A stretch of DNA of 64,000 bases from Bradyrhizobium sp. sGM-13 (GTDB lineage: Bacteria; Pseudomonadota; Alphaproteobacteria; Rhizobiales; Xanthobacteraceae), in NCBI RefSeq assembly GCF_018398875.1, contig NZ_JAGWDK010000004.1, positions 310,001 through 374,000 of the forward strand, read 5' to 3'. Below are positions 51,334 through 64,000 of the stretch, piece after piece. Under the pieces are notes generated by a model. That model was not told the DNA's origin and did not search any database. It worked only from the letters and a program-made list of their open reading frames with translations. A program made the translations under genes and the position numbers. The first letter of the stretch is position 1. Each line of letters starts with the position of its first letter.

Positions 51334-52020
51334 TCATGGCGAGGGATTGCCGGCGACAGCCAGATCCAGCGGCTGTTGCGGCCAGCGCTTCAGGGCGGCA
51401 TGGCCGGCATCAGTCAGCACGTAGATGCCGCGCTCGGCGCGATCGAACCAGCCATAAACATTATGCAAGAGGATTTTTCCGGCATCGGGAATCTCCGCCC
51501 GCAGATCCCTGACGCGCCGCGGCCCGCCTGACAGCGCGGAGGCACAGGCCAGCGCCTGCTGACGGTAGGCCGTCATGATCGGCGCACGCGTCGATCCGCC
51601 CATGACGGGATCGCCCTTGCGCTTCTGGTGCTCCGCGATCAGCCGCGAGCGCTTTTTGGGATCGCGGCGGGGCGCTGATGTCGGTGGCTTGACGAGCACT
51701 TCCACATCGCCGGTATTGGTGACAGCGAGCATGCCGAAGCCAAGCCGGCGGCAGAGGTTGCGATACCGCGCGTCGCTTTCGCGGCCCTTGCCGCGGGCGG
51801 ATAATTTAGCCGCAAGCCAGACCTCGTCGGCAGCGCCGGCGCGATCGACCGCCTGCAGGATCAGTTCCAGGTTGAAGGAAAGCTTGAGTTCGCCGATCAC
51901 CACGATCGGCGGATCGTCGCCACTCAGCGCCACGAGATCGCAGCCGCCGACCTCGCCTTTGACGGTGAAGCCGAGCTTTTCGAGGAAGCGTTTGACGGGA
52001 AGATAAAGTGCGGTTTCCAA
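51334..52020 (-). CDS. DUF2161 protein, PD-(D/E)XK nuclease-like
   Basis: A 228-residue protein. The N-terminal part, PVKRFLEKLGFTVKGEVGGCDLVAL then VVIGELKLSFN, carries the split E-x-D..ExK motif of PD-(D/E)XK nucleases: Glu24, Asp28 and GELK. A C-terminal winged-helix-like domain (LRAEIPDAGKILLHNVYGWFDRAERGIYVLT) follows. The start is probably TTG at 52020 with GGAG seven bases upstream. DUF2161 is annotated as a putative phosphodiesterase; DNA binding is plausible but the role is unknown. Confidence 0.75.
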   Translation of the reverse strand: METALYLPVKRFLEKLGFTVKGEVGGCDLVALSGDDPPIVVIGELKLSFNLELILQAVDRAGAADEVWLAAKLSARGKGRESDARYRNLCRRLGFGMLAVTNTGDVEVLVKPPTSAPRRDPKKRSRLIAEHQKRKGDPVMGGSTRAPIMTAYRQQALACASALSGGPRRVRDLRAEIPDAGKILLHNVYGWFDRAERGIYVLTDAGHAALKRWPQQPLDLAVAGNPSP

Positions 52021-52214: not shown

Positions 52215-52924
52215 TTGCAAGGGCTATACAAATTCCGCTTCACCACGGCCCGCGGCACGGGCAGCGGCGTGATGTTTGCGACATCGGGCGGCAGACTATA
52301 CGGCGGCGATTCCGGCTCTTCCTTTGTCGGCCACTTCACCGAAACCGATGGCATCGTCTCTTGCGAGGTTACGATGTCGCGCCACTATCACGATCCCAAA
52401 TACGTTCCGATGTTCGAAGTTGAACATGCCGTGATGAATTTCAGGGCGCGCCCCGCGGCGAGGAGTTTCATTTTAACGGCGGCAGCGCGGCCTTGCCCGG
52501 CATCCATTTCACGACGGTTCTGAGCCCTATCGATGATACCGATGCGCCGCCGCCTGGTACGGTCGGCCCTGAGGGGATCGGCAACGGGCTCTATTCGATC
52601 CACATTCGTATGCTCGACGGAATCGATGCCGGCAACACCGGTGTCATGATGCTGCAAGACGGCCGCATCAGGGGCGGCGACGCGTTCTTCGACTATGTCG
52701 GGGCGTACACGGCGGCGAACGGCAGATGGAAGGGCGAACTCATCAACCGCGAGCATACCCCGGCCATGGGCGAACGGCCGGTGTTCGGCGGCCATGAAGT
52801 CGGCATCGGCTTTTCCGGCACGTATGACCGCGACAGTGCGGAAGGTGATGCCACCGCGCTCGTCGGCAAGCGCAGCATCCGATTCAAGGCGGTGCTGCGA
52901 AAGCTTGTGGAAGTGGAGGGCTAA
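52215..52924 (+). pseudogene. Tandem-GrlR family protein, copy 1, frameshifted
   Basis: Joined across a frameshift the product would match the paralogues at 58001 and 60244 for its whole length. The first frame gives GLYKFRF... to about base 52454 (VMNFRARP), the second continues GEEFHFNGGS... to the stop at 52924. The paralogue alignment needs one missing base near 52455-52457, inside a GC-rich run. The C-terminal half has the family core GLYSIHIRMLDG, DGRIRGGDAFFDYVG, HTPAMGERPVFGGHE. Start is a TTG at about 52215 in line with LQGLYKF. It could be a decayed gene, a recent mutation or a sequencing error. Confidence 0.7.
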
Positions 52925-53601
52925 ACCCTCCCGTTCACCGGCAGCAGCGCGCCGGTGACGGCGCTTGCGGCGTCGCTGGCGAGGAACAGGATCACGTCGG
53001 CCAGTTCCTTCGGCGTCACCCATTTGGTGAAATCCGCGTTCGGCATGCTGGCGCGATTGGCCGCGGTGTCGATGATCGACGGCAGCACGGCATTGACCGT
53101 GATCTTGCCCTTGAGCTCGGCGGCGAGCGCCTCGGTGAGGCGGTGCACGCCGGCTTTAGAGGCGGCGTAGGCGCCCATGCCACTGTCTGCCTGCAGCGCG
53201 CCCCTCGCGCCGATATTGACGATGCGGCCCGCGCCCGATGCGGCGAGATGCGGGATCGCCGCGCGCGAGGCGTTGAGCGCGGTCATGACGTTGAGCGCAT
53301 ACATCCGTTGCCAGGTCTTGGGATCACCCTCCGCCACCGTCTCGAAGGCAAAGCCGCCGGCGATGTTGATCAGCGCGTCGAGCTTGCCGAAATGCGCGGC
53401 CGCGGCGTTGATGGCCTTTTTGGCTACCGCGGCATCGGTGAGGTCGACGCCGCCGAGTTCGAACAGGTCGGCCGTGGCCGGGACTTGCGTCGGGGCATGG
53501 TCGACGCTCGCAATTCTTGCGCCCAGCGCCAGCGCTTCGTCCACGACCACCCGGCCGAGCGCACCCAGCGCGCCCGTCACGACAATGACTTTTCCGTCCA
53601 T
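52921..53601 (-). CDS. SDR family NAD(P)-dependent oxidoreductase
   Basis: A 226-residue classical short-chain dehydrogenase. The cofactor motif is TGALGALG (residues 8-15), NxxG-type INIAGG follows, and the catalytic YAASK holds Tyr and Lys, with Ser/Asn partners in NIGARGAL. The start is ATG at 53601 with GGAGG seven bases upstream; an in-frame upstream extension is not needed. The stop overlaps the stop of GrlR-like copy 1 (convergent). Substrate unknown. Confidence 0.87.
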   Translation of the reverse strand: MDGKVIVVTGALGALGRVVVDEALALGARIASVDHAPTQVPATADLFELGGVDLTDAAVAKKAINAAAAHFGKLDALINIAGGFAFETVAEGDPKTWQRMYALNVMTALNASRAAIPHLAASGAGRIVNIGARGALQADSGMGAYAASKAGVHRLTEALAAELKGKITVNAVLPSIIDTAANRASMPNADFTKWVTPKELADVILFLASDAASAVTGALLPVNGRV

Positions 53602-53842
53602 GAAGGGCCTCCGCATGCGGATGAGGGAGCGCACCTTAACAGGAGATTTTCAATCCCAATGCGGCGAATTTCTGCATGAGCGTCAGTCTCGCCGGCCCAA
53701 ATTGTCGCGGCCCGCGCTGGCTGGCGGTAGCGAGCTACATAGGGGCAGAGCCAAATCGATAAAATTTGCCGGAGTTCTGTAAGCCGTTTGCAGAATCCAT
53801 TCGGTACAACAGGACTCCAACAAAAAGGCAGGGGGATTTGTC

Positions 53843-54043
53843 ATGGGTTTGCCGGATCATGGTTTACCGCTTGTTCAGCTTAAGGAGCAACGGCGCGACC
53901 TGGTTGTAGCGCTGCAGAATCGCAGCGGTCCGGTCTCGAGCTGGGAATTGATGCAGATCGCAGCGATCCAGCAGGCGATCTCGGCGTTCGAGGACGTCAT
54001 CGCCGACCTCGACGCCGAACTGGAAATGGAAGCGGCGGCCTGA
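53843..54043 (+). CDS. Small helical protein, uncharacterised
   Basis: A 66-residue soluble protein: PLVQLKEQRRDLVVALQNR and WELMQIAAIQQAISAFEDVIADLDAELEME form two amphipathic helices that may dimerise. GGGGGA lies before the ATG at proper distance. There is no signal peptide. The family is not recognised. It stands alone downstream of a 241-base gap (53602-53842) with no other visible gene. Confidence 0.6.
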   Translation: MGLPDHGLPLVQLKEQRRDLVVALQNRSGPVSSWELMQIAAIQQAISAFEDVIADLDAELEMEAAA

Positions 54044-54112
54044 GCCGATAGCGCGCGCAGCTTTTTGGCCACGGTCTGCTTTACGACTTGCGCGTGGCGG
54101 ATAAGATAGCGC

Positions 54113-54793
54113 ATGCGCTACGCTCTCGCATTTCCACTCGCTCTCGTCGCATTGCAGTCGGTGGTCGCCGCACATGCGCAAGGCTGCGTCGCCGATCGGC
54201 ACGGCGGCCTTGTATGCGGCGAAGGGAAAGCTGCGATGCGCGTCTTCGCCGGCACCACCTCGCCCTCGAAGGACTACGCGTTCGCCTGGCGAACCGCGCA
54301 AGGCCTGCCGTCCGGCCAGGATACTCCCAACGACGTCGAAAACGTCCTGATCCGTGTCACCGATGGCGCGGTGCTGGCCACACTGGGCGGTACCCATTGG
54401 GAGACGGGTGAAATGCGGGCGAACCGCTACGAACTGATTGCGGCCTGGTCGCCGGACAGCCGGGCCGTCGTCGAGGTGGCGAACAGTCGTTGGGAGAGTG
54501 ATTCCTTTGCCTATTACCTGATAGACGGTGCAGCGGCGACCAAGCTCGATCTGCGTGCGCTGGTCGAGCCTGTCATGACGGCCAGGCTGCCGCCGCGAAA
54601 TCGCCAGGGTAATTTCTTTCGCGTGCATGAGGACCTGCCGGTGACACTCGATGCGCGCGGCCGCGTGCGCTTTACCGCGATGCTCTATGTGCCCAAGGGC
54701 GAAACCAGCAACGACTACAAGGTGCAGGTCAACGTCAGGGCGAGAGGCGGCAAGCTGTCCGCGCAGGTCGTGTCGATGCAGCGGGTGAGGTGA
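54113..54793 (+). CDS. Exported hypothetical protein
   Basis: A 226-residue protein with signal peptide 1-22 (ALAFPLALVALQSVVAAHAQ). The mature region has Cys25 and Cys35 near its start, a beta-rich middle (DYAFAWRTAQ, VLIRVTDGAVLATLGG) and EVANSRWESDSFAYYLIDG. There is no recognised domain. It is divergently oriented with respect to nothing upstream and converges on the tyrosine phosphatase gene. The function is unknown; beta-propeller-like repeats are possible. Confidence 0.62.
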   Translation: MRYALAFPLALVALQSVVAAHAQGCVADRHGGLVCGEGKAAMRVFAGTTSPSKDYAFAWRTAQGLPSGQDTPNDVENVLIRVTDGAVLATLGGTHWETGEMRANRYELIAAWSPDSRAVVEVANSRWESDSFAYYLIDGAAATKLDLRALVEPVMTARLPPRNRQGNFFRVHEDLPVTLDARGRVRFTAMLYVPKGETSNDYKVQVNVRARGGKLSAQVVSMQRVR

Positions 54794-54805
54794 AGGCGGA
54801 TTAGA

Positions 54806-55555
54806 TCAGCGCTGCAGATAGCGCGCTTCGAGGTGGGCGCGTTCGGCTTTGCCGAGACCAAGACCATCGCGGAGATAGCTTTCGAGATCGCCATAGTCGG
54901 CGTCGATGGCCTCGAAGGCGGCGGCGAGGAACGATGCCTGCACCGAGCCTAGCACCTGGCTGACGTTCTCGGGCAGGTCGCTGCTGTGATTGGGGTCCCT
55001 GCGGTAGAAGCGGTTGGTCAGCAGATAGTCTTCCGAGATGATGTCCTCGGAAACACCGAGCGTATGCAGGATCAGCGCGCACGCAAAGCCGGTGCGGTCC
55101 TTGCCGGCGGTGCAATGGATCACCAGCGGCGCGCGGTCTTCCAACAGATGGGCAAAGAGCGCGCGGAAATGCTGCGTGTTGTTCTGTACGTAGCTGCGGT
55201 AGGAATCGCGCATCACCTCGACGGCGTGGTCCGTAGACAGCGGCGAACCGGCGGCTGCGATCGCGCGCAGCGCCGCGACCACCGTCGGCTCGACCGGCAG
55301 CGAATGAACAGTGATTTCCGGCATGCCGCACAGGGCGACGGCGCGCTCCTCGGTGCCGCGAAAATCGAACGCGCTGCGGACGCCCAGCTCCCGCAGGACG
55401 GAGACATCGCCTTCGGTGAGGTGGCCAAGATGGTTGGAACGAAAAATCTGCCGCCAGCGTACGGTCCGGCCGTCGCTTGTGGGGTAGCCGCCGAGATCGC
55501 GAAAATTGCTGGCGCCGGCAAGATTGAGATGGCGGGCAGGGGAATCTGACATCAT
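54806..55555 (-). CDS. Tyrosine-protein phosphatase (bacterial DSP/SidP-like)
   Basis: A 249-residue phosphatase of the Y_phosphatase3 type. The P-loop HCTAGKDRTG (CxxxxxR) holds the catalytic Cys and Arg. NFRDLGGYPTSDGRTVRWRQIFRS is the typical N-terminal signature, and GVRSAFDFRGTEER follows. It hydrolyses phosphotyrosine or phosphoinositides. The ATG pair at 55555/55552 gives the likely start; an upstream extension is unsupported. It is divergent from the MliC-like gene, 83 bases away. Confidence 0.88.
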   Translation of the reverse strand: MMSDSPARHLNLAGASNFRDLGGYPTSDGRTVRWRQIFRSNHLGHLTEGDVSVLRELGVRSAFDFRGTEERAVALCGMPEITVHSLPVEPTVVAALRAIAAAGSPLSTDHAVEVMRDSYRSYVQNNTQHFRALFAHLLEDRAPLVIHCTAGKDRTGFACALILHTLGVSEDIISEDYLLTNRFYRRDPNHSSDLPENVSQVLGSVQASFLAAAFEAIDADYGDLESYLRDGLGLGKAERAHLEARYLQR

Positions 55556-55638
55556 GCAGCAAGGGTTCGGACGGAGAACAAGGGACGGGTTTCGTTCGGC
55601 CCCGTCTCGTCTATACTGAACTCGCAAGAGGGCGAAGC

Positions 55639-55956
55639 ATGAATCGGCGGAACATCACGATTTTTGGCGCGGCGCTAGGCTTCGCCGCGGTTGCAACCAT
55701 GCCGTCACAGGCATCGGCGCAGTCCAGCTTCCAGAATTATCGTTGCGCCGACGGCTCGCAGTTCACGGTTGGATTTTTTCAATACGACAAGCGTGCCCAT
55801 CTACAACTTGACGGCAAGGCGGTGACGCTGCCCAAGCGTTGGACCCTGTCAGGGTCGCGTTACCAGGGGAAGGGCGTGACCTTACGGATCACCAAAGCTG
55901 GCATCACCACCCTCAAGCACGCCAGGCGGCGGACCACGACGTGCCAGCAGACATGA
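55639..55956 (+). CDS. MliC/PliC-like exported protein (lysozyme inhibitor fold)
   Basis: A 105-residue exported protein; signal peptide about 1-28 (MNRRNITIFGAALG, a possible Tat motif). The mature domain, YRCADGSQFTVGFF then LDGKAVTLPKRWTLSGSRYQGKGVTLRITKAG, matches the MliC beta-barrel: the opening C and the closing Cys (TTTCQQ) form its disulfide. MliC proteins inhibit c-type lysozymes in the periplasm, useful against host defences. The inhibitory loop is not verified. A good terminator follows. Confidence 0.72.
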   Translation: MNRRNITIFGAALGFAAVATMPSQASAQSSFQNYRCADGSQFTVGFFQYDKRAHLQLDGKAVTLPKRWTLSGSRYQGKGVTLRITKAGITTLKHARRRTTTCQQT

Positions 55957-55992
55957 AAAAGGGCCGAAACGATTTCGTTCCGACCCTTTTCT
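55956..55992 (+). terminator. Rho-independent terminator after MliC-like gene
   Basis: AAAAGGGCCGAAACG then ATTT then CGTTCCGACCCTTTT forms a long stem with two imperfect pairs, followed by CTAGTT. It starts at the stop codon of the MliC-like gene. The A-rich left arm and T-rich right arm make it able to end transcription in both directions; on the minus strand it would serve the DUF2735 gene. Confidence 0.7.
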
Positions 55993-56049
55993 AGTTCTCC
56001 GTCCGCGCCTCGTTTGTCCGGCGCGTCCCTGCCAAACACCTCCCGGGCA

Positions 56050-56250
56050 TCAGTGATCCCGCTCGCTCTTGGCATCCTCGATCGCCGCGGCGTGGTACCA
56101 GCTATCGCAGCAGTCCGCGAGGTTGACCGGTTGGGCCGCAAACTCGGTCACGGCTTTGGTCTCGCCATAGCGACGTCCCCCGAGAGCCGCCCGGCCCCCG
56201 GCTGGGAATTGGTAGATCGTGGCTGACCCGTGATTCAAACTCGGATTCAT
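56050..56250 (-). CDS. DUF2735 protein divergent from glnII
   Basis: A 66-residue soluble protein. SATIYQFPAGGRAALGGRRYGE is the DUF2735 signature. Two adjacent Cys and a Trp (DCCDSWYHAAAIEDAK) follow. AAGGAG precedes the ATG. In rhizobia this family recurrently lies next to glnII, as here, so a role in glutamine synthetase II control or nitrogen stress is suspected; nothing direct is known to me. A shared regulatory region of 569 bases lies between the two. Confidence 0.72.
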   Translation of the reverse strand: MNPSLNHGSATIYQFPAGGRAALGGRRYGETKAVTEFAAQPVNLADCCDSWYHAAAIEDAKSERDH

Positions 56251-56680
56251 CGTTGCAGTCTCCTTCTCTCGACGCGCGAGCCTCCATGGTGCGCCCGACT
56301 CGTTCTCTAGTGGTTACGTAAGGCGATATTGTCGGTGCCCCGGGCGGGTGCAAGTGACCAAGAGAGCGGCAGGTTTTGTTTATTTCGTAGGCAGTTTTGG
56401 CGGTGCATTCTGCGAGGCAGCGTTTGCGTGACCAACGCGCGGCCGTGCGGGATGGTTGCTCGGGTGAGTTGGCGTCTGACGCGGGGACCTCAAAAGGATG
56501 CCGCACCTTTAAGCGCGTAGCGGCAATGAAGGGAAAATGCCGGAAAAATAGGCTGGATTCAGTTCGCAACCCTGCCGCCAGACCACCTGATTTGCGGGCC
56601 GGCCGCGCTCCTATGTCGCAGCTTCTATTTCGGGCCGCCGCCGGCGCGAGCTGTGGATGGCCAATGCCGCACTGCAGCGA
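56251..56680. other. Long regulatory gap between DUF2735 and glnII
   Basis: No convincing gene lies in these bases. A plus frame over 56657-57124 is a shadow of glnII. A partly symmetric segment at 56336-56352 (TGCACC and GGTGCC-like arms in the minus direction) could be an NtrC enhancer but matches weakly. The downstream 16 bases carry the sigma-54 promoter described separately. Confidence 0.4.
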
Positions 56681-56697
56681 TTGGCACGCTACATGCT
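56681..56697 (+). promoter_or_regulatory. Sigma-54 (RpoN) promoter of glnII
   Basis: TTGGCACG-CTAC-ATGCT matches the consensus TGGCACG-N4-TTGCW: the invariant GG (56683-56684) and GC (56695-56696) are correctly spaced. Transcription would start near 56708, about 112 bases before the glnII ATG. RpoN/NtrC control of glnII is established in Bradyrhizobium and Rhizobium. Only the box itself is seen here; the enhancer is uncertain. Confidence 0.82.
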
Positions 56698-56819
56698 TAG
56701 AAGGGAGTGGCCTGACGTGGCCGGGTACACGTATGCGGAGACCTCCGGGGGCTGGGCGTCAAAATCCAGAATTCAAGGTTTCGGTTTTCCGCATTTCATA
56801 GCAACTCAAGAGAGGCTCA

Positions 56820-57857
56820 ATGACCAAGTACAAGCTCGAGTATATTTGGCTCGACGGCTATACGCCGACGCCGAATCTGCGCGGCAAAACGCAGATCAAG
56901 GAATTCGACAAGTTTCCGGCGCTCGAACAGCTTCCGCTGTGGGGCTTCGACGGCTCGTCCACCATGCAGGCCGAAGGCCACAGCTCCGATTGCGTGCTGA
57001 AGCCGGTCGCCGTCTATCCGGATGCTGCGCGGGAAAACGGCGCGCTGGTGATGTGCGAAGTCATGATGCCCGATGGCAAGACCCCGCACTCCTCGAACAA
57101 GCGCGCAACCATCCTGGACGATGAAGGCGCCTGGTTTGGTTTCGAGCAGGAATATTTCTTCTACAAGGACGGCCGTCCGCTCGGCTTCCCCTCGGACGGT
57201 TATCCGGGTCCGCAGGGCCCATATTACACCGGCGTTGGCTACAAGAACGTTGGCGATGTCGCCCGCAAGATCGTGGAGGAGCATCTCAACCTCTGCCTCG
57301 CCGCCGGCATCAACCACGAAGGCATCAACGCCGAAGTGGCGAAGGGCCAGTGGGAATTCCAGATCTTCGGCAAGGGCTCCAAGACCGCTGCCGACCAGAT
57401 GTGGATGGCTCGCTACCTGATGCTGCGCCTGACCGAGAGCTACGGCATCGACATCGAATTCCACTGCAAGCCGCTCGGCGATACCGACTGGAACGGCTCG
57501 GGCATGCACGCCAACTTCTCGACCAAGTACATGCGCGAAGTCGGTGGCAAGGAATACTTCGAGAAGCTGATGGCTGCCTTTGAGAAGAATCTCATGGACC
57601 ACATTGCCGTCTACGGGCCGGACAACGACAAGCGCCTGACCGGCAAGCACGAGACCGCGCCCTGGAACAAGTTCAGCTACGGTGTGGCTGACCGCGGCGC
57701 CTCGATCCGCGTTCCGCACTCCTTCGTCAACAATGGCTACAAGGGCTATCTGGAAGACCGCCGCCCGAACTCGCAGGGCGACCCCTACCAGATCGCGTCC
57801 CAGATCCTGAAGACGATCGCGGAAGTGCCGACCGGAGCCAAGGCGGCCGCGGCCTAA
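56820..57857 (+). CDS. glnII: Glutamine synthetase II (eukaryotic type)
   Basis: A 345-residue GSII; shorter than GSI (about 470) and without the adenylylation Tyr loop, so not controlled by GlnE. KYKLEYIWLDGYTPTPNLRGKT opens the beta-grasp domain; WGFDGSSTMQAEGHSSD, FGFEQEYFF and GINAEVAKGQWEFQIF hold the ammonium, glutamate and metal sites. It makes glutamine from glutamate and ammonia with ATP. A sigma-54 promoter lies upstream and a strong terminator follows. It has the divergent DUF2735 gene as partner and GrlR-like genes downstream. Confidence 0.96.
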   Translation: MTKYKLEYIWLDGYTPTPNLRGKTQIKEFDKFPALEQLPLWGFDGSSTMQAEGHSSDCVLKPVAVYPDAARENGALVMCEVMMPDGKTPHSSNKRATILDDEGAWFGFEQEYFFYKDGRPLGFPSDGYPGPQGPYYTGVGYKNVGDVARKIVEEHLNLCLAAGINHEGINAEVAKGQWEFQIFGKGSKTAADQMWMARYLMLRLTESYGIDIEFHCKPLGDTDWNGSGMHANFSTKYMREVGGKEYFEKLMAAFEKNLMDHIAVYGPDNDKRLTGKHETAPWNKFSYGVADRGASIRVPHSFVNNGYKGYLEDRRPNSQGDPYQIASQILKTIAEVPTGAKAAAA

Positions 57858-57899
57858 GAGACTTAACGATACAATTCGGGCTTTACGCGTTGCAAAGCT

Positions 57900-57938
57900 G
57901 ATCCGCCAAGGCACCGCCTTGGCGGATCATTGCGTTTT
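57900..57938 (+). terminator. Terminator of glnII
   Basis: GATCCGCCAAGGC and its perfect complement GCCTTGGCGGATC form a 13-bp stem with loop ACC. It is followed by ATTGCGTTTTG, a weak T run. It lies 42 bases after the glnII stop and before the GrlR-like copy 2, separating the two. Confidence 0.82.
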
Positions 57939-58000
57939 GATGACACCGAGCCTCGAAAGGTTGATTTAAATACGTCCGTTCAAGGCCGTTTCCCTGCGTT

Positions 58001-58750
58001 ATGAACCGCGCTAGACAATTAGCCGGGTTTGCCGGGGTGACGGCATTGTTTGAGGGATTTTACAAAGTCAGGTTTCAGCTTGGCGCGGCGGTCGGCCGCA
58101 GCGTGATGTATGCGCGCGGCGGCAAGATGCTGGGCGGCAATTCGGCCTTTGCCCATATCGGCAGTTACGAAAAACGGGACGATGGCGTCGACATCGTGAT
58201 CCAGACTGTGCGCCACAACCCGGACCCGAATTACCGCGCGATGGCCGGCACCGACGATGCCACCTTGCTGGCGAAGGGCAGGGCAGACGGCAATCTGTAC
58301 CGCTTCGAAGGAGGCCTGAAGGAGTTGCCCGGCGTGGCGTTCCAGTCGGTAATGACGCCGATCGAGCAGGAGGCCATCCCGATCGCCGGCAGCGTCGGCG
58401 TGGGCGGTATCGTCAACGGCCTCTATTCCATCCACGTTCGCCTGCTCGACGGCGTCGAGGGCGGCCTGACCGGCGTGATGCTGCTCAATGATGGGCGCAT
58501 CCTCGGCGGCGACGCATCCTTCTACTATCTCGGCACGTACACCTCGGAGAACGGCCGCTGGAAAGGCCAGATTCTCAACCAGGAGCACACGCCCGCCATG
58601 GGCGAGAACCCCATTTTCGGCGGCCATGAAGTCGGCATCGGCTTTTCCGGCTCCTGCGACGAGCAAGGCGCGCTCTTGGAGGCGACCGCGCTCGCCGGCA
58701 AGCGCAGCCTTCGCATGACCGCGGTGCTCAAGCTGATGCGCCGGGTATAG
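58001..58750 (+). CDS. Tandem-GrlR family protein, copy 2
   Basis: A 249-residue soluble protein with two copies of one domain: residues 18-120 (GFYKVRFQLG..GRSVMYARGGKMLGGNSAF) and 139-247 (GLYSIHVRLLDG..GVMLLNDGRILGGDASFYYLGTY). The layout G-L/F-Y-S/K, then G-V-M/S-x4-G-K/R-x-L-GGD/N matches the single-domain GrlR regulator of enteropathogenic E. coli, a beta-barrel that binds the activator GrlA. The C-terminal copy carries NQEHTPAMGENPIFGGHEVGIGFSG, the most conserved stretch among the three paralogues. There is no signal peptide or DNA-binding motif. It starts 62 bases after the glnII terminator and is followed, 6 bases on, by a ModA-like gene. Function unknown. Confidence 0.72.
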   Translation: MNRARQLAGFAGVTALFEGFYKVRFQLGAAVGRSVMYARGGKMLGGNSAFAHIGSYEKRDDGVDIVIQTVRHNPDPNYRAMAGTDDATLLAKGRADGNLYRFEGGLKELPGVAFQSVMTPIEQEAIPIAGSVGVGGIVNGLYSIHVRLLDGVEGGLTGVMLLNDGRILGGDASFYYLGTYTSENGRWKGQILNQEHTPAMGENPIFGGHEVGIGFSGSCDEQGALLEATALAGKRSLRMTAVLKLMRRV

Positions 58751-58756
58751 CAGCCG

Positions 58757-59443
58757 ATGGTTGATACCATCCGCATGCTTTCGACGCTGGCGTTGAAGGG
58801 CGCCGTGCAAGGCCTGGCCGGCCAGTATCAGGCGGCCGGCGGCGCACGCATCGACGCCGATTTCGCGCCCACGCTGGCGCTGTTGGACCGGCTGCGCGCG
58901 GGCGAGGCCGCGGACGTCGTCATCCTGACCCGCGAGGGGCTGGACGAAGTCGTGCGCGAGGGGCGGGTGGTCCCGGAGACTTGCGTGGACCTGGCTCGCT
59001 CCTTCGTCGGCATCGCCGTGAAAGCCGGGGCGGCCCATCCCGATATCGCGACCGAGGCGGCGCTGCGCGCTGCGTTACTCGGCGCGCGCTCGGTGGCCTA
59101 TTCGCGGCTCGGCGCCAGCGGTATTCTGTTTGCAAGACTGATCGAGCAACTCGGCATTGCCGCCGACATCAATGCGAGGGCGCAGATCATCCCGCAGGGT
59201 TTTACCGCTGAGAAGCTGGTGACCGGCGAGGCCGATCTCGCCGTCCAGCAGATCAGCGAGTTGAAGCAGGTCGGCGGCATCGAGGTGGTTGGAGCCATCC
59301 CACGCGACTTGCAAACGCCCGCGGTGTTTTCCGGTGGGCGTATGGTAGCGAGCGACAAGCCGGATGAAGCGGACAGGCTGCTGCGATTTCTTGCGTCGCC
59401 TGCGGTCGCACCTGCTTTGCGCGAGAGCGGGCTAGAGCCCTGA
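58757..59443 (+). CDS. ModA-like substrate-binding domain protein without signal peptide
   Basis: A 228-residue type II periplasmic-binding fold (ModA/SBP_bac_11). LSTLALKGAVQGLAGQYQAAGG, ADVVILTREGLDEV and QISELKQVGGIEVVGAIP follow the ModA order. It has no signal peptide or lipobox, so it probably works in the cytoplasm. It lies six bases after GrlR-like copy 2, so they likely form an operon. A ligand-sensing partner for the GrlR-like protein is an inference. No modB/modC genes are near, which argues against molybdate uptake. Confidence 0.75.
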   Translation: MVDTIRMLSTLALKGAVQGLAGQYQAAGGARIDADFAPTLALLDRLRAGEAADVVILTREGLDEVVREGRVVPETCVDLARSFVGIAVKAGAAHPDIATEAALRAALLGARSVAYSRLGASGILFARLIEQLGIAADINARAQIIPQGFTAEKLVTGEADLAVQQISELKQVGGIEVVGAIPRDLQTPAVFSGGRMVASDKPDEADRLLRFLASPAVAPALRESGLEP

Positions 59444-59446
59444 ATT

Positions 59447-59890
59447 TCAATCCCGGATCAAGACGACACCGGCGATCAACAGCACTGCGCCTGCGAGCCG
59501 CGCGGCGCTCACGGGATGCGGCGTCAGCCCGAACGCGCCGAAATGGTCGAGCGTCACTGCAGCGAGCACCTGGCCGGCAATGACCAGCGCAAACAGCGTC
59601 GCTGCGCCGAGCGACGGCAACAACAGGATCGCCAGCAGGATGAAGGCAGCGCCGAATACGCCGCCGGACCACGCATACCACGGCACATCGACCATTGTTT
59701 TCCAGGACGGCACGCGTTCGCCTAGCGCGATCACCGCGACGATCATGGTGATGAGGCCGCCCGCATAGCTGATCAGCCCCGCCCAGGCCGGCGAGCCCAG
59801 CGCGGTGCGCAGACTGCCATTGAGCACCTGCTGGGTCGCGACGCTGACGCCAGCGCCGAGCGCAAGGAGATAGAGGAAGAAATGTTGCAC
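59447..59890 (-). CDS. YdcZ/DUF606-type DMT family membrane protein
   Basis: A 147-residue protein with five hydrophobic helices. LLALGAGVSVATQQVLNGSLRTALGSPAWAG is the DUF606 opening, and GVFGAAFILLAILLLPSLGAATLFALVIAGQV the core. It belongs to the small half-size drug/metabolite transporter branch; the substrate is unknown. The start is GTG at 59890 with GGGGG six bases upstream. It ends close to the ModA-like gene stop, tail to tail. Confidence 0.85.
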   Translation of the reverse strand: MQHFFLYLLALGAGVSVATQQVLNGSLRTALGSPAWAGLISYAGGLITMIVAVIALGERVPSWKTMVDVPWYAWSGGVFGAAFILLAILLLPSLGAATLFALVIAGQVLAAVTLDHFGAFGLTPHPVSAARLAGAVLLIAGVVLIRD

Positions 59891-60027
59891 GTGATCCCCC
59901 GTTCATTCCACGCCGGCCGAACGATTCCGGCACTGCAAGCTCAGACAACGCGAATAGCCGGAGCGGAACAAGGGGACCCGTGGCGTCATTATTGCGGACG
60001 GGGGCTCGCAACAAAGCGGTGCTGGCC

Positions 60028-60177
60028 ATGATCCGAAAATTGCAATCGGGCGAATACCGGCTCTATTCCCGCAAAATCAATCCGAAAACCGGGAAGCGCC
60101 GTAACCTCGGAACCTTCAAATCGCGTGCGGCGGCGGAAAAGCACGAGCGCGCCGTGCAGTATTTCAAGCGGCATTGA
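60028..60177 (+). CDS. Small Arm/AP2-like DNA-binding-domain protein
   Basis: A 49-residue basic protein (MIRKLQSGEYRLYSRKINPK..), with TGKRRNLGTFKSRAAAEKHERAVQYFK. The three-strand-plus-helix pattern SGEYRLY..GKRRNLGTFKSRAAAEKHE resembles the N-terminal arm DNA-binding domain of tyrosine recombinases, but no recombinase follows. A GTG start at 59980 with AAGGGGA would add 16 residues; ATG at 60028 fits the family that I recall. Nucleic-acid binding is inferred. It lies 66 bases before GrlR-like copy 3. Confidence 0.7.
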   Translation: MIRKLQSGEYRLYSRKINPKTGKRRNLGTFKSRAAAEKHERAVQYFKRH

Positions 60178-60243
60178 AACTGCGATAAAACGCACTGGTT
60201 CCATCGCGGCGGCGGTGCTAAGCCCGCCCGGACGATTCCGATA

Positions 60244-60963
60244 GTGCAGGACATTTCGTTGCTGAACGGGCTCTACAAGGTCGAGTACGGCGTGAACGAC
60301 GCGTTCGGCCGCAGCATCATGTGCATGCACAATGGCAAGCTGTTGGGCGGCAATTCCGCCTTTGCCCATCTCGGCACCTACCAGGAGACGGGTCGGGAAA
60401 TTATCGGCGAGGTTATCACCCAGCGCCATAATGACGACCCTCACTACAAGCCTTTGATGGATACCGATGTCGCCGCCATCAGCGTGCGCGGCAGGCTGCA
60501 GGGCAACAGGATTCGTTTTGAAGGAAGCGCCGCGCCGCGGCCCGGCGCCTTGTTCTGGGCCGAGTTGACGCGGCTCGACGACGAGGCACTGCCGCCGGTC
60601 GGCACCGTCGGGCCGGGCGGCATAATCAATGGGCTCTATTCCCTCCAGCTCCGCGCGCTCGACGGTATCGAGGCCGGTCTGTCCGGCGTCATGCTGCTGC
60701 TGGACGGCCGCATCCTCGGCGGCGACGCTTTCTTCTATTACCTCGGGTCCTATGCTTCGGCCGACGGCCGCTGGAAGGGCGAGATCCTGAACCAGGAGCA
60801 TACGCCGGCGAAGGGCGAAAACCCTGTGTTCGGCGGCCATGAGGTGGGCATCGGCTTTACCGGCACCTGCGACGAAGCCGGCGCTGAACTCGAAGCCATT
60901 GCGCTCGCGGGAAAGCGCAGCTTACGGCTGGCCGCGACGCTGAAGCTGATGCGGCCGGTCTAG
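60244..60963 (+). CDS. Tandem-GrlR family protein, copy 3
   Basis: A 239-residue protein with two GrlR-like domains, residues 8-110 (NGLYKVEYGVNDAFGRSIMC..GKLLGGNSAFAHLG) and 129-237 (GLYSLQLRALDGIEAGLSGVML..DGRILGGDAFFYYLG). It is more like copy 2 than copy 1. NQEHTPAKGENPVFGGHEVGIGFTGTCDE is almost identical to copy 2. The start is GTG at 60244; no ATG precedes it, and the ribosome site is weak. Its stop overlaps the stop of the convergent 60960-61160 gene. The small arm-domain protein lies upstream. Function unknown. Confidence 0.72.
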   Translation: MQDISLLNGLYKVEYGVNDAFGRSIMCMHNGKLLGGNSAFAHLGTYQETGREIIGEVITQRHNDDPHYKPLMDTDVAAISVRGRLQGNRIRFEGSAAPRPGALFWAELTRLDDEALPPVGTVGPGGIINGLYSLQLRALDGIEAGLSGVMLLLDGRILGGDAFFYYLGSYASADGRWKGEILNQEHTPAKGENPVFGGHEVGIGFTGTCDEAGAELEAIALAGKRSLRLAATLKLMRPV

Positions 60964-61160
60964 CGTCGTTTGCGCCGCGCCAAAAACCAGCCGGTGAGGG
61001 CCACGGGCGCGCCAACCGCGATCCAGGAAAAATAACGGCCGGCGCCTTCCGAAAGCAGCGCCGTCAACAATCCAGCGACCGACAGCACCCCGATCAGCAG
61101 TGGACCGCCATACACGGTCCACCAACCGCCACTGGAGCGCAACTTGCGTGCGTCGGTCAT
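60960..61160 (-). CDS. Small membrane protein coupled to PepSY gene
   Basis: A 66-residue protein with two hydrophobic helices (VYGGPLLIGVLSVAGLLTALL and YFSWIAVGAPVALTGWFLA) and a basic end (RRKRR). ATG at 61160 overlaps the PepSY gene stop by four bases, so it belongs to the TonB receptor - PepSY operon. Small helical proteins with PepSY partners are common in iron-uptake loci; function is unknown. Confidence 0.7.
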   Translation of the reverse strand: MTDARKLRSSGGWWTVYGGPLLIGVLSVAGLLTALLSEGAGRYFSWIAVGAPVALTGWFLARRKRR

Positions 61161-62290
61161 CGCGACGGCTGCAACGCAGGCTGTCCCGCGATCGCGTGGC
61201 TGCGGTGCTTGCGGCGTTTGATGACCCACAGATAGAGCCCACTGACGATGACGACGATCGTCATGATGTCGAGCAGGGCCCAGATGATCTTCAGCGGCAT
61301 GCCGCCATAATCACCGAAGTGCAGCGGTTGCGACACGAGCAGCGCCTTGAGATAGACCGGAAGATCGCGCGCGTCGGAAACTTCGCCGGTTTCGCCATCC
61401 AGCAGCACCGGCTTCAACAGCCGCGACGTCAGCGGCGTGTCGCCGCGCATGAACACCGCGAAATGATGCGAGCTCGTGAACGGGGTGCCGGGGAAGGCAA
61501 CGAAGGAGACGTTCATGTCCGGCGCGGCCTTACGCGCATTCTCAAGCGCTACATCAAGCGAGGCGAGATGGACCGGCGGCGGCTTGCCGGCATAGGGTTT
61601 GACCATGTCAGTGAGCTCGTCGGCCTTCCACTGGCTCAGCATCACTTCCGCAAGCGTATTGATGACGCCGGTAGCGCCGACCACCAGCGCCCACGCGATG
61701 GTCACCGCGCCCAGAAGATTGTGCCAATCGAACCAGGCAATGCGGCGCGACTTGTCCCTGAGGGTGCCGAAACTCAGGCGCCGCGTAAACGGCCAGTACA
61801 GCACCACGCCGGAGACGATGGCGACAAGAAATAGGAATCCCATGGCGCCGAGGAACAGCTTGCCAGGCTGGCCGGCAAACATATCGACGTGGAGTTTCAG
61901 GAAGATCAGCATCGGGCCACCGCCGACCGAGCCGAGCGGCTTGGCGGTGTGTGCATCATAGGCCCTGAGCGTCGCGGCATCCGGATCGCCGTCGACCTTG
62001 TTGTTGGTGAAGGCGATCACGTTGTTCGGTTCGTCCTTGTCCCACAAGATATATTGCAGGACGCGACCAGGATCGTTCGTAAGCGCCGTGCGGGCGATCT
62101 CGTCGATGCTCCGTTTCACCGCGCCCGGCTGTGCGATCTCGGGCTTTGGATCGTAGCCGAGCAGCTCATCGATCTCGTGATGGAAGATGAGCGGCAGGCC
62201 GGTGATGCACAGCAGCAGCAGGAACAGCGTCGATATCAGGCTGCTCCAGGTGTGGACCACCGACCAGATGTGAACGGTTCTGGCTTTCAG
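61157..62290 (-). CDS. PepSY-domain membrane protein of an iron-uptake locus
   Basis: About 377 residues with four hydrophobic segments, PepSY-associated TM type. VHTWSSLISTLFLLLLCITGLPLIFHHEID is the typical first helix, and WFDWHNLLGAVTIAW, SQPLHFGDYGGMPLKIIWALLDI are family landmarks with many His for haem or iron. Such proteins accompany TonB receptors, perhaps reducing ferric complexes. Family members begin KARTVxIWSxVHTW; the only codon giving this is CTG at 62290, with GGAGG five bases before it. The nearest standard start is GTG at 62260. Confidence 0.85.
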   Translation of the reverse strand: MKARTVHIWSVVHTWSSLISTLFLLLLCITGLPLIFHHEIDELLGYDPKPEIAQPGAVKRSIDEIARTALTNDPGRVLQYILWDKDEPNNVIAFTNNKVDGDPDAATLRAYDAHTAKPLGSVGGGPMLIFLKLHVDMFAGQPGKLFLGAMGFLFLVAIVSGVVLYWPFTRRLSFGTLRDKSRRIAWFDWHNLLGAVTIAWALVVGATGVINTLAEVMLSQWKADELTDMVKPYAGKPPPVHLASLDVALENARKAAPDMNVSFVAFPGTPFTSSHHFAVFMRGDTPLTSRLLKPVLLDGETGEVSDARDLPVYLKALLVSQPLHFGDYGGMPLKIIWALLDIMTIVVIVSGLYLWVIKRRKHRSHAIAGQPALQPSR

Positions 62291-62318
62291 GGCTGCCTCC
62301 GTTCCGATCGCAGTCGCT

Positions 62319-64000
62319 TTACCATTTGTAGGCGAGGCTCGCCGTTACGCGGCGGCGGTCACCATAGAAGCAGGACGTATCGGACGCGCAACTTGCGACG
62401 TAAGTTTTGTCCGCGATGTTGATGACGTTCAACGCCGCGCGCCAGTTTTGCCATTCGTAGTGGATCGCCGCGTCACCAAGCACGACCGAGGGAACCACCA
62501 GCGTGTTCGCGCTGTTGGCGAAGGACTTGCCGACGTAGCGCACGCCGCCACCAAAGCCAAAGCCTCGCAGCGGCCCCTCCTGGAACGTGTAGTCAGCCCA
62601 GAGGGATCCTGTCTGCTGTGGCGTGTTGGTCGGTGTCAGGCCGAGTAGGGCCGGATCTGCGTCCTTGCTGATAAAAAGGTCGTAGGTGGTGAACGCGCCA
62701 ACCATCTTCAGGCCAGGTGCGAGATTGGCTACGGCCTCCAGCTCGAGACCGCGCGAGGTGACCTCACCGGTCTGATTCTGAAGAACCGGCGTGATGCCCG
62801 GGACTGTCGTCGGCACGTTTTTCCGCTTCAGGTCGAACACGGCAATGCTGAAATGGCCGTCGAAGCCGTCAGGCTGAAACTTCAATCCGATCTCCGCCTG
62901 CTCGCCGGTTTCCGGCAGGAACAGTTGGTTCGACGCGTTGAGGCCGATGATCGGGTTATAGCTTGTCGCGTAGGCAACATAGGGCGCGAGCCCGTTGGCG
63001 AAATTATAGATCAGGCCGGCACGGCCACTGAACTTGCTGTCCTCGCGGTTGGTCAGCGTGGCGCCGGTCGGACGATCGCCCTGGCTGGTCGAGACCCAGT
63101 CATTGCGGCCGCTCAACACCAGCGTGAAGCCGCCGAACTTGATCTGGTCCTGAATATAGGTGCCGAGTTGATTCTGGGTCAGGAGGAAATTGCGGAAGGG
63201 GTTGCCCGTGAACGGAATGTCGCCGACGCCATATACGGGATTGAAGATGTTGATCGGAGGCACGCCGCCGCCGAAGAGCTGATAGTCGTCGATCCGATAG
63301 GCTTTCAGATCGAGGCCGAATAGCATCGTGTGCTGCACGGGGCCGGTATCGAAGCGATACTCCAACTGGTTGTCCAGATTGCCCTGGTTGGCGGTGTTCT
63401 TTGCGTACCAATTGTAGCGGCCAATGTCGCCGGTGGAGGGGTCGTTGTTAACATAGTTGTTGCCGACAAAACCGCGATAGGTGATGTCGACATGCGCGTA
63501 TCGGGCGTTCTGCCGGAACGTGACACTGTCGGAGAGGTTGCGCTCGAACTGATAGCCGATCATCTCCTGTTCGCGCTTGAACGTATCGACGCTGGGATCG
63601 CCGACGAATAGCTTTGTCGGAATACGTCCAAAGGGTGCATCGACCACCGTACCGACATAAGGCAAGAAGTTAATGCCGCGCGTATCCGTCTTCGACGCTG
63701 AAGCCAGCACGGTGAACGTCGTATCTGCATCCGGCTTATAGGTGACGGACGGCGCGATGAAGTAATTATTGTCGGGCGTGAAATCGACTTGCGTGCCGCC
63801 GTTCTGGACCTGGCCGACCACACGATAGAATAGTTTTCCGTTCTCCGGTTGCGTCGCGACCGGGCCGCCGAAATCGAAAGATAGATAGGCATTGCCGAAA
63901 TTGTTGACGCCGGTCTCGAGATAGCGGATCGGCTCCACCGGGGGCGTCTTGCTGACCGCGTTGACGATGCCGCTCGGGCTGGAGCCGCCGTAGAGCACGG
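62319..64000 (-). CDS. TonB-dependent siderophore receptor, partial
   Basis: At least 560 residues; the 5-prime end lies beyond the window. LYGGSSPSGIVNAVSKTP at the right edge is the end of the plug domain. The rest is a 22-strand barrel with SDFRDRYAY-like strands and ends RRVTASLAYKW, with the C-terminal aromatic residue required for outer-membrane assembly. It resembles FhuA/FoxA-like receptors for ferric hydroxamates or similar. The gene ends 28 bases before the PepSY protein, its likely operon partner. Confidence 0.92.
   Translation of the reverse strand, partial: VLYGGSSPSGIVNAVSKTPPVEPIRYLETGVNNFGNAYLSFDFGGPVATQPENGKLFYRVVGQVQNGGTQVDFTPDNNYFIAPSVTYKPDADTTFTVLASASKTDTRGINFLPYVGTVVDAPFGRIPTKLFVGDPSVDTFKREQEMIGYQFERNLSDSVTFRQNARYAHVDITYRGFVGNNYVNNDPSTGDIGRYNWYAKNTANQGNLDNQLEYRFDTGPVQHTMLFGLDLKAYRIDDYQLFGGGVPPINIFNPVYGVGDIPFTGNPFRNFLLTQNQLGTYIQDQIKFGGFTLVLSGRNDWVSTSQGDRPTGATLTNREDSKFSGRAGLIYNFANGLAPYVAYATSYNPIIGLNASNQLFLPETGEQAEIGLKFQPDGFDGHFSIAVFDLKRKNVPTTVPGITPVLQNQTGEVTSRGLELEAVANLAPGLKMVGAFTTYDLFISKDADPALLGLTPTNTPQQTGSLWADYTFQEGPLRGFGFGGGVRYVGKSFANSANTLVVPSVVLGDAAIHYEWQNWRAALNVINIADKTYVASCASDTSCFYGDRRRVTASLAYKW

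Follow-up and report, generated by a model that had tools for sequence, protein, structure and literature searches.

Tandem proteins with a predicted GrlR-like fold, encoded around glnII in Bradyrhizobium and found throughout the sampled genus

Three genes in a 64,000-nucleotide stretch of Bradyrhizobium sp. sGM-13 (assembly GCF_018398875.1, contig NZ_JAGWDK010000004.1, positions 310,001 to 374,000, forward strand; hereafter the window) encode tandem proteins, each made of two homologous domains of ~110 residues, for which a predicted fold like that of the E. coli regulator GrlR is well supported. Remote homology to GrlR is likewise well supported; strict membership of the GrlR family is not shown. 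A relative was found in every Bradyrhizobium genome sampled, and the family does not track a marker of type III secretion. The likeliest reading, which we hold tentatively, is that the proteins are cytosolic ligand-binding regulatory adaptors in which two fused GrlR-like barrels would form a one-chain pseudo-dimer outside type III secretion control. The three genes are as follows.

52215..52924, + strand: copy 1, tandem GrlR-like gene, frameshifted in the assembly (N-domain open to ~52443; C-domain 52568-52921 in another frame)
58001..58750, + strand: copy 2, tandem GrlR-like gene, intact (N-domain 58046-58372; C-domain 58400-58747)
60244..60963, + strand: copy 3, tandem GrlR-like gene, intact (N-domain 60259-60585; C-domain 60613-60960)

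The first-pass annotation had placed three paralogues at these positions. Copies 2 and 3 bear this out: both are uninterrupted frames (249 aa and 239 aa) at the expected coordinates, are 59% identical and carry the conserved blocks that it quoted. Copy 1, by contrast, is not one open frame. Read in frame 1, 52215-52924 meets a stop at codon 103, and its C-terminal half is open in a different frame (52493-52924). An alignment with six relatives places a one-base deletion of the window within roughly 52440-52450. Of the 12 close relatives fetched, 10 carry the orthologue of copy 1 as an intact tandem open reading frame; tblastn did not find it in the remaining two (L049 and L053). The frameshift may be a real mutation or an error of the draft assembly (574 contigs). 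Judged from sequence similarity (copy 3 against copy 2, E 3.1e-91; copy 3 against the C-half of copy 1, E 4.9e-57), homology among the copies is far above chance, and the tandem architecture of two homologous domains per chain is as the annotation described it. Ratios of nonsynonymous to synonymous substitution (dN/dS) point to purifying selection, with medians over 15 pairs each of 0.109 for copy 2, 0.075 for copy 3 and 0.200 for copy 1 (from six relatives, the window's broken copy left out); the comparison gene glnII gave 0.062. The sequence 5' of an (L/V)(F/L)xGxYK motif is not conserved in copies 2 and 3 (58001-58046 and 60244-60259), and their start codons are therefore uncertain. Translation may begin at a TTG or GTG just before the motif, and the true start of copy 2 may lie nearer 58046.

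Against the Pfam model of GrlR (PF16518, gathering cut-off 26.8 bits) the best scores were 16.9 bits for copy 3, 15.1 bits for the N-half of copy 1 and 14.0 bits for its C-half, with no match for copy 2. None of five places in the sGM-13 genome exceeded the cut-off, and family members gave no Pfam or NCBIfam match above a cut-off. Profiles of the family itself were compared with 177,635 sequences of the PDB, in which the match to GrlR spans the first ~50 positions only. A 21-domain profile (A5) ranked two GrlR sequences first (E 0.0055 and 0.0064; next different protein, 1.0), as did a broader 16-row profile (A6; E 0.0014 and 0.0017; next, 1.7). A narrower profile (A3) gave GrlR at E 1.2, tied with acid phosphatases, and copy 2 as a single query found two chance-level hits only (E 0.82 and 1), GrlR not among them. 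Because the match to the GrlR profile lies below the Pfam cut-off, the kinship rests on the broad PDB profiles together with the fold. The GrlR assignment of the first-pass annotation thus fell short of Pfam membership, while the broad family profiles nevertheless rank GrlR first.

The similarity lies in the N-terminal half of GrlR and includes a G-Y...GGD...G motif. The same core motif is found in single-domain GrlR-like proteins of alphaproteobacteria, for example Phyllobacterium WP_228019995.1, which are homologous to each half of the tandem proteins and differ from them in having one domain. To our knowledge, no partner of these single-domain proteins has been reported. Besides glycines, one tyrosine and one histidine are common to all 21 rows of the N-domain, C-domain and single-domain set; the histidine varies in the broader 16-row set. 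An acidic stretch, EDED, which we take to be a GrlR motif from the title of a reference, aligns with e-a-d-g in the profile, where the window domains show SADG, SENG, AANG, ETGR, KRDD and ETDG. On this alignment, the acidic stretch is not conserved in the family.

The structure of E. coli GrlR, encoded in the locus of enterocyte effacement (2OVS, 3E3C and 4KT5), is an eight-stranded barrel in a single domain of ~115-123 aa, as against two domains per chain in the Bradyrhizobium proteins. AlphaFold2 modelled copy 3, from 32 sequences, as two eight-stranded domains with a predicted local distance difference test score (pLDDT) of 84.6 and a predicted template modelling score of 0.83; the weak parts were the N-terminus and residues 187-199, the loop after QEH. 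In a Foldseek search with the whole of copy 3, GrlR (2OVS) was second (E 3.5e-4, probability 1.00). Alignment of the copy 3 N-domain with GrlR by VIA-align gave Z 12.4 over 105-107 residues with a root-mean-square deviation of 2.6-2.9, the highest among the natural proteins listed. The C-domain of copy 2 was also modelled by itself (28 rows; pLDDT 84.7 for the best model). Its top three Foldseek hits were all GrlR (E 7.5e-5 to 1.3e-4, TM 0.67-0.70; next E 0.012), and VIA-align gave Z 12.2 to 4KT5_B, other natural barrels reaching up to 11.8. The two eight-stranded barrels expected at first pass are thus what the copy 3 model contains, and among natural proteins GrlR matches copy 3 best in VIA-align; it also heads the Foldseek hits for the copy 2 C-domain.

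Designed barrels, Cap15, avidins and OmpA-type barrels also score near GrlR in VIA-align, so that fold likeness by this measure alone would not single out GrlR; the Foldseek result for the C-domain and the sequence profiles do. The barrel of the cyclic-dinucleotide receptor Cap15 (7N34) reached Z 11.4 with copy 3 and 11.1 with the copy 2 C-domain, but the models of the tandem proteins show strands and no membrane helix, and the likeness is one of fold only. Five proteins, two window proteins among them, gave no match up to E 0.1 to the PADLOC models of defence systems. Avidin- and lipocalin-like proteins are eight-stranded barrels with an internal pocket; their fold scores were below those of GrlR and they were absent from the sequence-profile hits in the PDB. 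In copy 3, the more hydrophobic alternate face was the less variable in 12 of 16 strands, some of the differences being small, with the reverse pattern in two strands (32-36 and 130-138) and ties in two (156-160 and 164-173).

A family match at E <= 0.001 was obtained in 146 of 146 Bradyrhizobium genomes. The best match was about 1e-76 or better, the level expected of a full-length tandem protein, in all but eight of them (G014, G032, G040, G047, G064, G131, G136 and G145). These and the following counts take in the genome of sGM-13, and the wider samples overlap. In the bacterial family, matches were found in 47 of 149 genomes, representing 14 of 47 genera with Bradyrhizobium included, and beyond it in 18 of 297 genomes of the order and 10 of 349 of the phylum. 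Broader profiles matched 12 of 199 order, 7 of 289 class and 8 of 249 phylum genomes. The family thus thins out beyond Bradyrhizobium. Scans of the plasmid collection yielded few relatives (1, 0 and 3 records). The closest named loci to the copy 3 C-domain came from Bradyrhizobium murdochi, B. retamae and B. sp. LMTR 3. The 8.3-Mb genome of sGM-13 holds six family loci, three in the window, two on contig C5 and one on contig C60. The member on C60 (C60:14805-15146, L064) is single-domain with an internal TAG, as is its counterpart in a relative (G102, C112:76080-76421). Two single-domain members, L179 and L063, match phrog_2483, a phage family of unknown function, at E 5.8e-4 and 0.05, a hint that phages too may encode GrlR-like proteins; two window proteins matched nothing in PHROGs.

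A tree of 83 domains brought all 30 N-domains into one group (support 99/96) and all 31 C-domains into another (100/98), with the single-domain proteins outside both. The tree was built on few columns (113), and the tool warned that long branches meet in places. Of the 120 domain rows collected, which leave aside two short pieces, those dropped were the frameshifted N-piece of copy 1, the row of L076, one truncated row of L055 and, from seven Bradyrhizobium loci, the two-domain rows. Since the N-domains and C-domains each group with the single-domain proteins outside, the tree fits a single origin of the tandem form, the copies being paralogues of a tandem ancestor; copy 1 branches from copies 2 plus 3. 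Tandem proteins are also present in other genera of the bacterial family and may in part have passed between genera. In four regions from other genera (L194, L195, L198 and L199) a single-domain and a tandem member are clustered with some of the GNAT, h50890 and SDR genes. In 14 of 14 such regions (L194-L207), whose flanks are limited, neither glnII nor the solute-binding gene described below was seen, and some Bradyrhizobium loci (L055, L056, L059, L209 and L210) carry a single-domain member at the position of copy 1. From these observations, the cluster probably predates its link to glnII. The local expansion around glnII that the first-pass annotation had envisaged does not agree with an old paralogue set in which the tandem form looks single-origin and none of the 14 other-genus regions shows glnII. 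Shortened copies resembling the copy 3 C-domain, perhaps decaying duplicates, lie 3' of copy 3 in L055 (13207-13509), L056 (12318-12551), L154 (6975-7289) and L166 (7957-8223).

The neighbours of the three genes are listed here.

51334..52020, - strand: DUF2161 PD-(D/E)XK-like protein, neighbour upstream of copy 1
52921..53634, - strand: SDR-family dehydrogenase, convergent with copy 1 and overlapping its end
56682..56697, + strand: promoter-like site of glnII (RpoN-type, -24/-12), with a single mismatch to the consensus
56820..57857, + strand: glnII, glutamine synthetase II, directly 5' of copy 2 in the examined Bradyrhizobium loci holding copy 2
57899..57929, + strand: terminator-like hairpin 3' of glnII, with a 14-bp stem that is kept while its sequence varies in relatives
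58757..59443, + strand: SBP_bac_11 solute-binding-protein fold, 6 bp 3' of copy 2, no apparent signal peptide by eye

The order glnII, copy 2, solute-binding gene was found in 20 of 20 fetched Bradyrhizobium regions, which had been picked for holding a copy 3-type gene. Among 80 named loci, copy 2 was found 59 times, always on the same strand and <=600 bp after glnII, and was followed by the solute-binding gene in 56 of the 59. The SBP_bac_11 protein is a probable cytosolic binding protein by its sequence, and its gene and copy 2 are probably co-transcribed. A hairpin follows glnII in all 80 rows (the window, the 20 regions and the 59 loci, several being the same species fetched twice), beginning 37-57 nt past the stop codon with a stem of 11-16 bp and at most one mismatch; the sequence changes on both sides of the stem across rows. 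When this stretch of the window was shuffled 100 times by mononucleotide, stems reached 8 at most, compared with 14 observed. The hairpin looks like a terminator and would be a conserved terminator or processing element. Because it lies between them, glnII and copy 2 are probably separate transcripts, and an operon coupling of the two was down-weighted. The RpoN-type site of glnII is the only one in the window with one mismatch to the consensus; matches with up to two mismatches numbered 23 against 30.4 expected and do not exceed chance. For strain DOA9, an excerpt of PMC13207237 lists a glnII site that closely resembles this one. The SDR gene adjoins family members in several other genera as well. 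A PepSY-TM protein (label from Pfam) beside an open reading frame resembling a TonB-dependent receptor (label by eye), at 61157-63998, is kept 3' of copy 3 in 12 close relatives (L042-L053).

GrlR is described in an extract of PMC9979310 as a dimer of beta-barrel subunits, and in part of PMC4933562 as a cytosolic lipocalin with a lipid in its cavity, the dimer acting on one GrlA. The strand-face pattern and purifying selection, taken with this reported lipid cavity and dimer, make a ligand-binding, partner-docking adaptor the likeliest function for the tandem proteins. Each barrel would be a small calycin-like pocket for a small ligand, hydrophobic or otherwise, and the two fused barrels together would stand in for the GrlR homodimer. 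This pseudo-dimer would dock on a protein partner other than GrlA, whose activity would change with the state of the ligand; copy 2 may work with the solute-binding-fold protein encoded next to it. A bolder form, which we consider rather unlikely, is that the family is a genus-wide class of intracellular sensors, each a two-pocket pseudo-dimer free of secretion and GrlA, in which copy 2 would pair with its cytosolic solute-binding-fold neighbour as a two-protein unit for ligand sensing beside glnII.

Several findings weigh against the adaptor proposal. The best Pfam score for GrlR is only 16.9 of 26.8 bits, the top Foldseek hit for the whole of copy 3 is a Bacteroides protein (E 5.1e-5), designed barrels are level with GrlR or slightly above it (Z up to 13.3 for copy 3), and the other four models of the copy 2 C-domain reached pLDDT only 59 to 72. 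The eight-stranded barrel is a common fold, with Cap15, amine dehydrogenase, OprF and avidin barrels scoring close. We know of no ligand, partner or phenotype for the tandem proteins, and two single-domain members examined in the sGM-13 genome have no neighbour partner in common. The solute-binding gene persists without copy 2 in L115, L165 and L171 and was not found after copy 2 in three of the 59 loci; since each occurs without the other, they are not obligate partners.

That the proteins truly function as GrlR does, binding an activator of secretion and so repressing type III secretion in rhizobia, is very improbable. It would accord with the predicted fold and with secretion genes elsewhere in the genome, where two YscJ genes above the cut-off (C8:207886-208440 and C37:15874-16437) lie far from the family cluster. 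An extract of PMC9952627 also reports a Sinorhizobium fredii gene named grlR as 4.9-fold down, with several secretion genes up, under mannitol. The annotation's remark that no secretion genes are visible holds for the surveyed 48.9-64 kb and for the examined neighbours of family members, but not for the genome. Against repression, the family does not track the secretion marker: YscJ exceeded its cut-off in 74 of the 146 genus genomes, sGM-13 included, leaving 72 with the family and no such YscJ (of these, G033 and G076 show YscJ-like matches that are truncated, and not all assemblies are complete). GrlA/CaiF (PF07180) was found in none of 41 genomes (25 of the genus and 16 of the order, sGM-13 among them), the E. 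coli control being positive. With the EDED stretch also not conserved, a GrlR function is not supported, and the tandem genes probably play no part in controlling type III secretion. Quite unlikely, too, is an accessory role in nitrogen metabolism, such as modulation of glutamine synthetase II. It has in its favour that glnII lies directly 5' of copy 2 in all 20 regions and before all 59 copy 2 genes, but the conserved terminator-like hairpin separates the two, the 14 regions from other genera show no glnII, and four of the 63 named loci showing glnII keep it without copy 2 (L115, L149, L165 and L171).

A purely structural or carrier role without regulation, for instance in lipid or heme carriage or stress protection, is unlikely, though the lipocalin-like barrel, the reported lipid binding of GrlR and the differing neighbours of the further paralogues in the sGM-13 genome would suit it; the loop motifs QEHTPA and FGG-E-GIGF are conserved more strongly than a bare barrel seems to need. 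Similarly doubtful, and if anything a shade more so, is a small enzyme or isomerase with its active site in the barrel mouth. Thirty polar or aromatic-polar residues are invariant over 32 rows, including N-Q-E-H-T of the C-domain, and such a barrel can carry catalysis, a designed retro-aldolase (8ah9) being among the best fold matches. However, the best natural match of the C-domain is a regulator, and the 21 rows share only one tyrosine and one histidine besides glycines, the histidine varying in the 16-row set.

No paper on the tandem Bradyrhizobium family, or on GrlR-like proteins, the GrlR domain, family or homologs, or PF16518, was evident from listings of open-licence full texts. GrlR labels in rhizobia are not new, because the NCBI record of Phyllobacterium WP_228019995.1 bears the name 'GrlR family regulatory protein' and a named grlR of Sinorhizobium fredii appears in the extract of PMC9952627. 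The Bradyrhizobium proteins have a predicted barrel like that of GrlR but differ from the E. coli protein in having two domains per chain, a Pfam score below the cut-off and no conserved EDED stretch, in that no GrlA/CaiF partner was found in the 41 genomes searched, and in not tracking type III secretion. The usual view of GrlR is that of a specialised regulator of virulence in gut pathogens. The presence of a conserved, multi-copy relative in every one of the 146 Bradyrhizobium genomes, 72 of them with no secretion marker above its cut-off, suggests instead that GrlR represents a single specialised branch within a wider family of barrels. It also cautions against equating a 'GrlR' label in rhizobia with 'negative regulator of type III secretion'.

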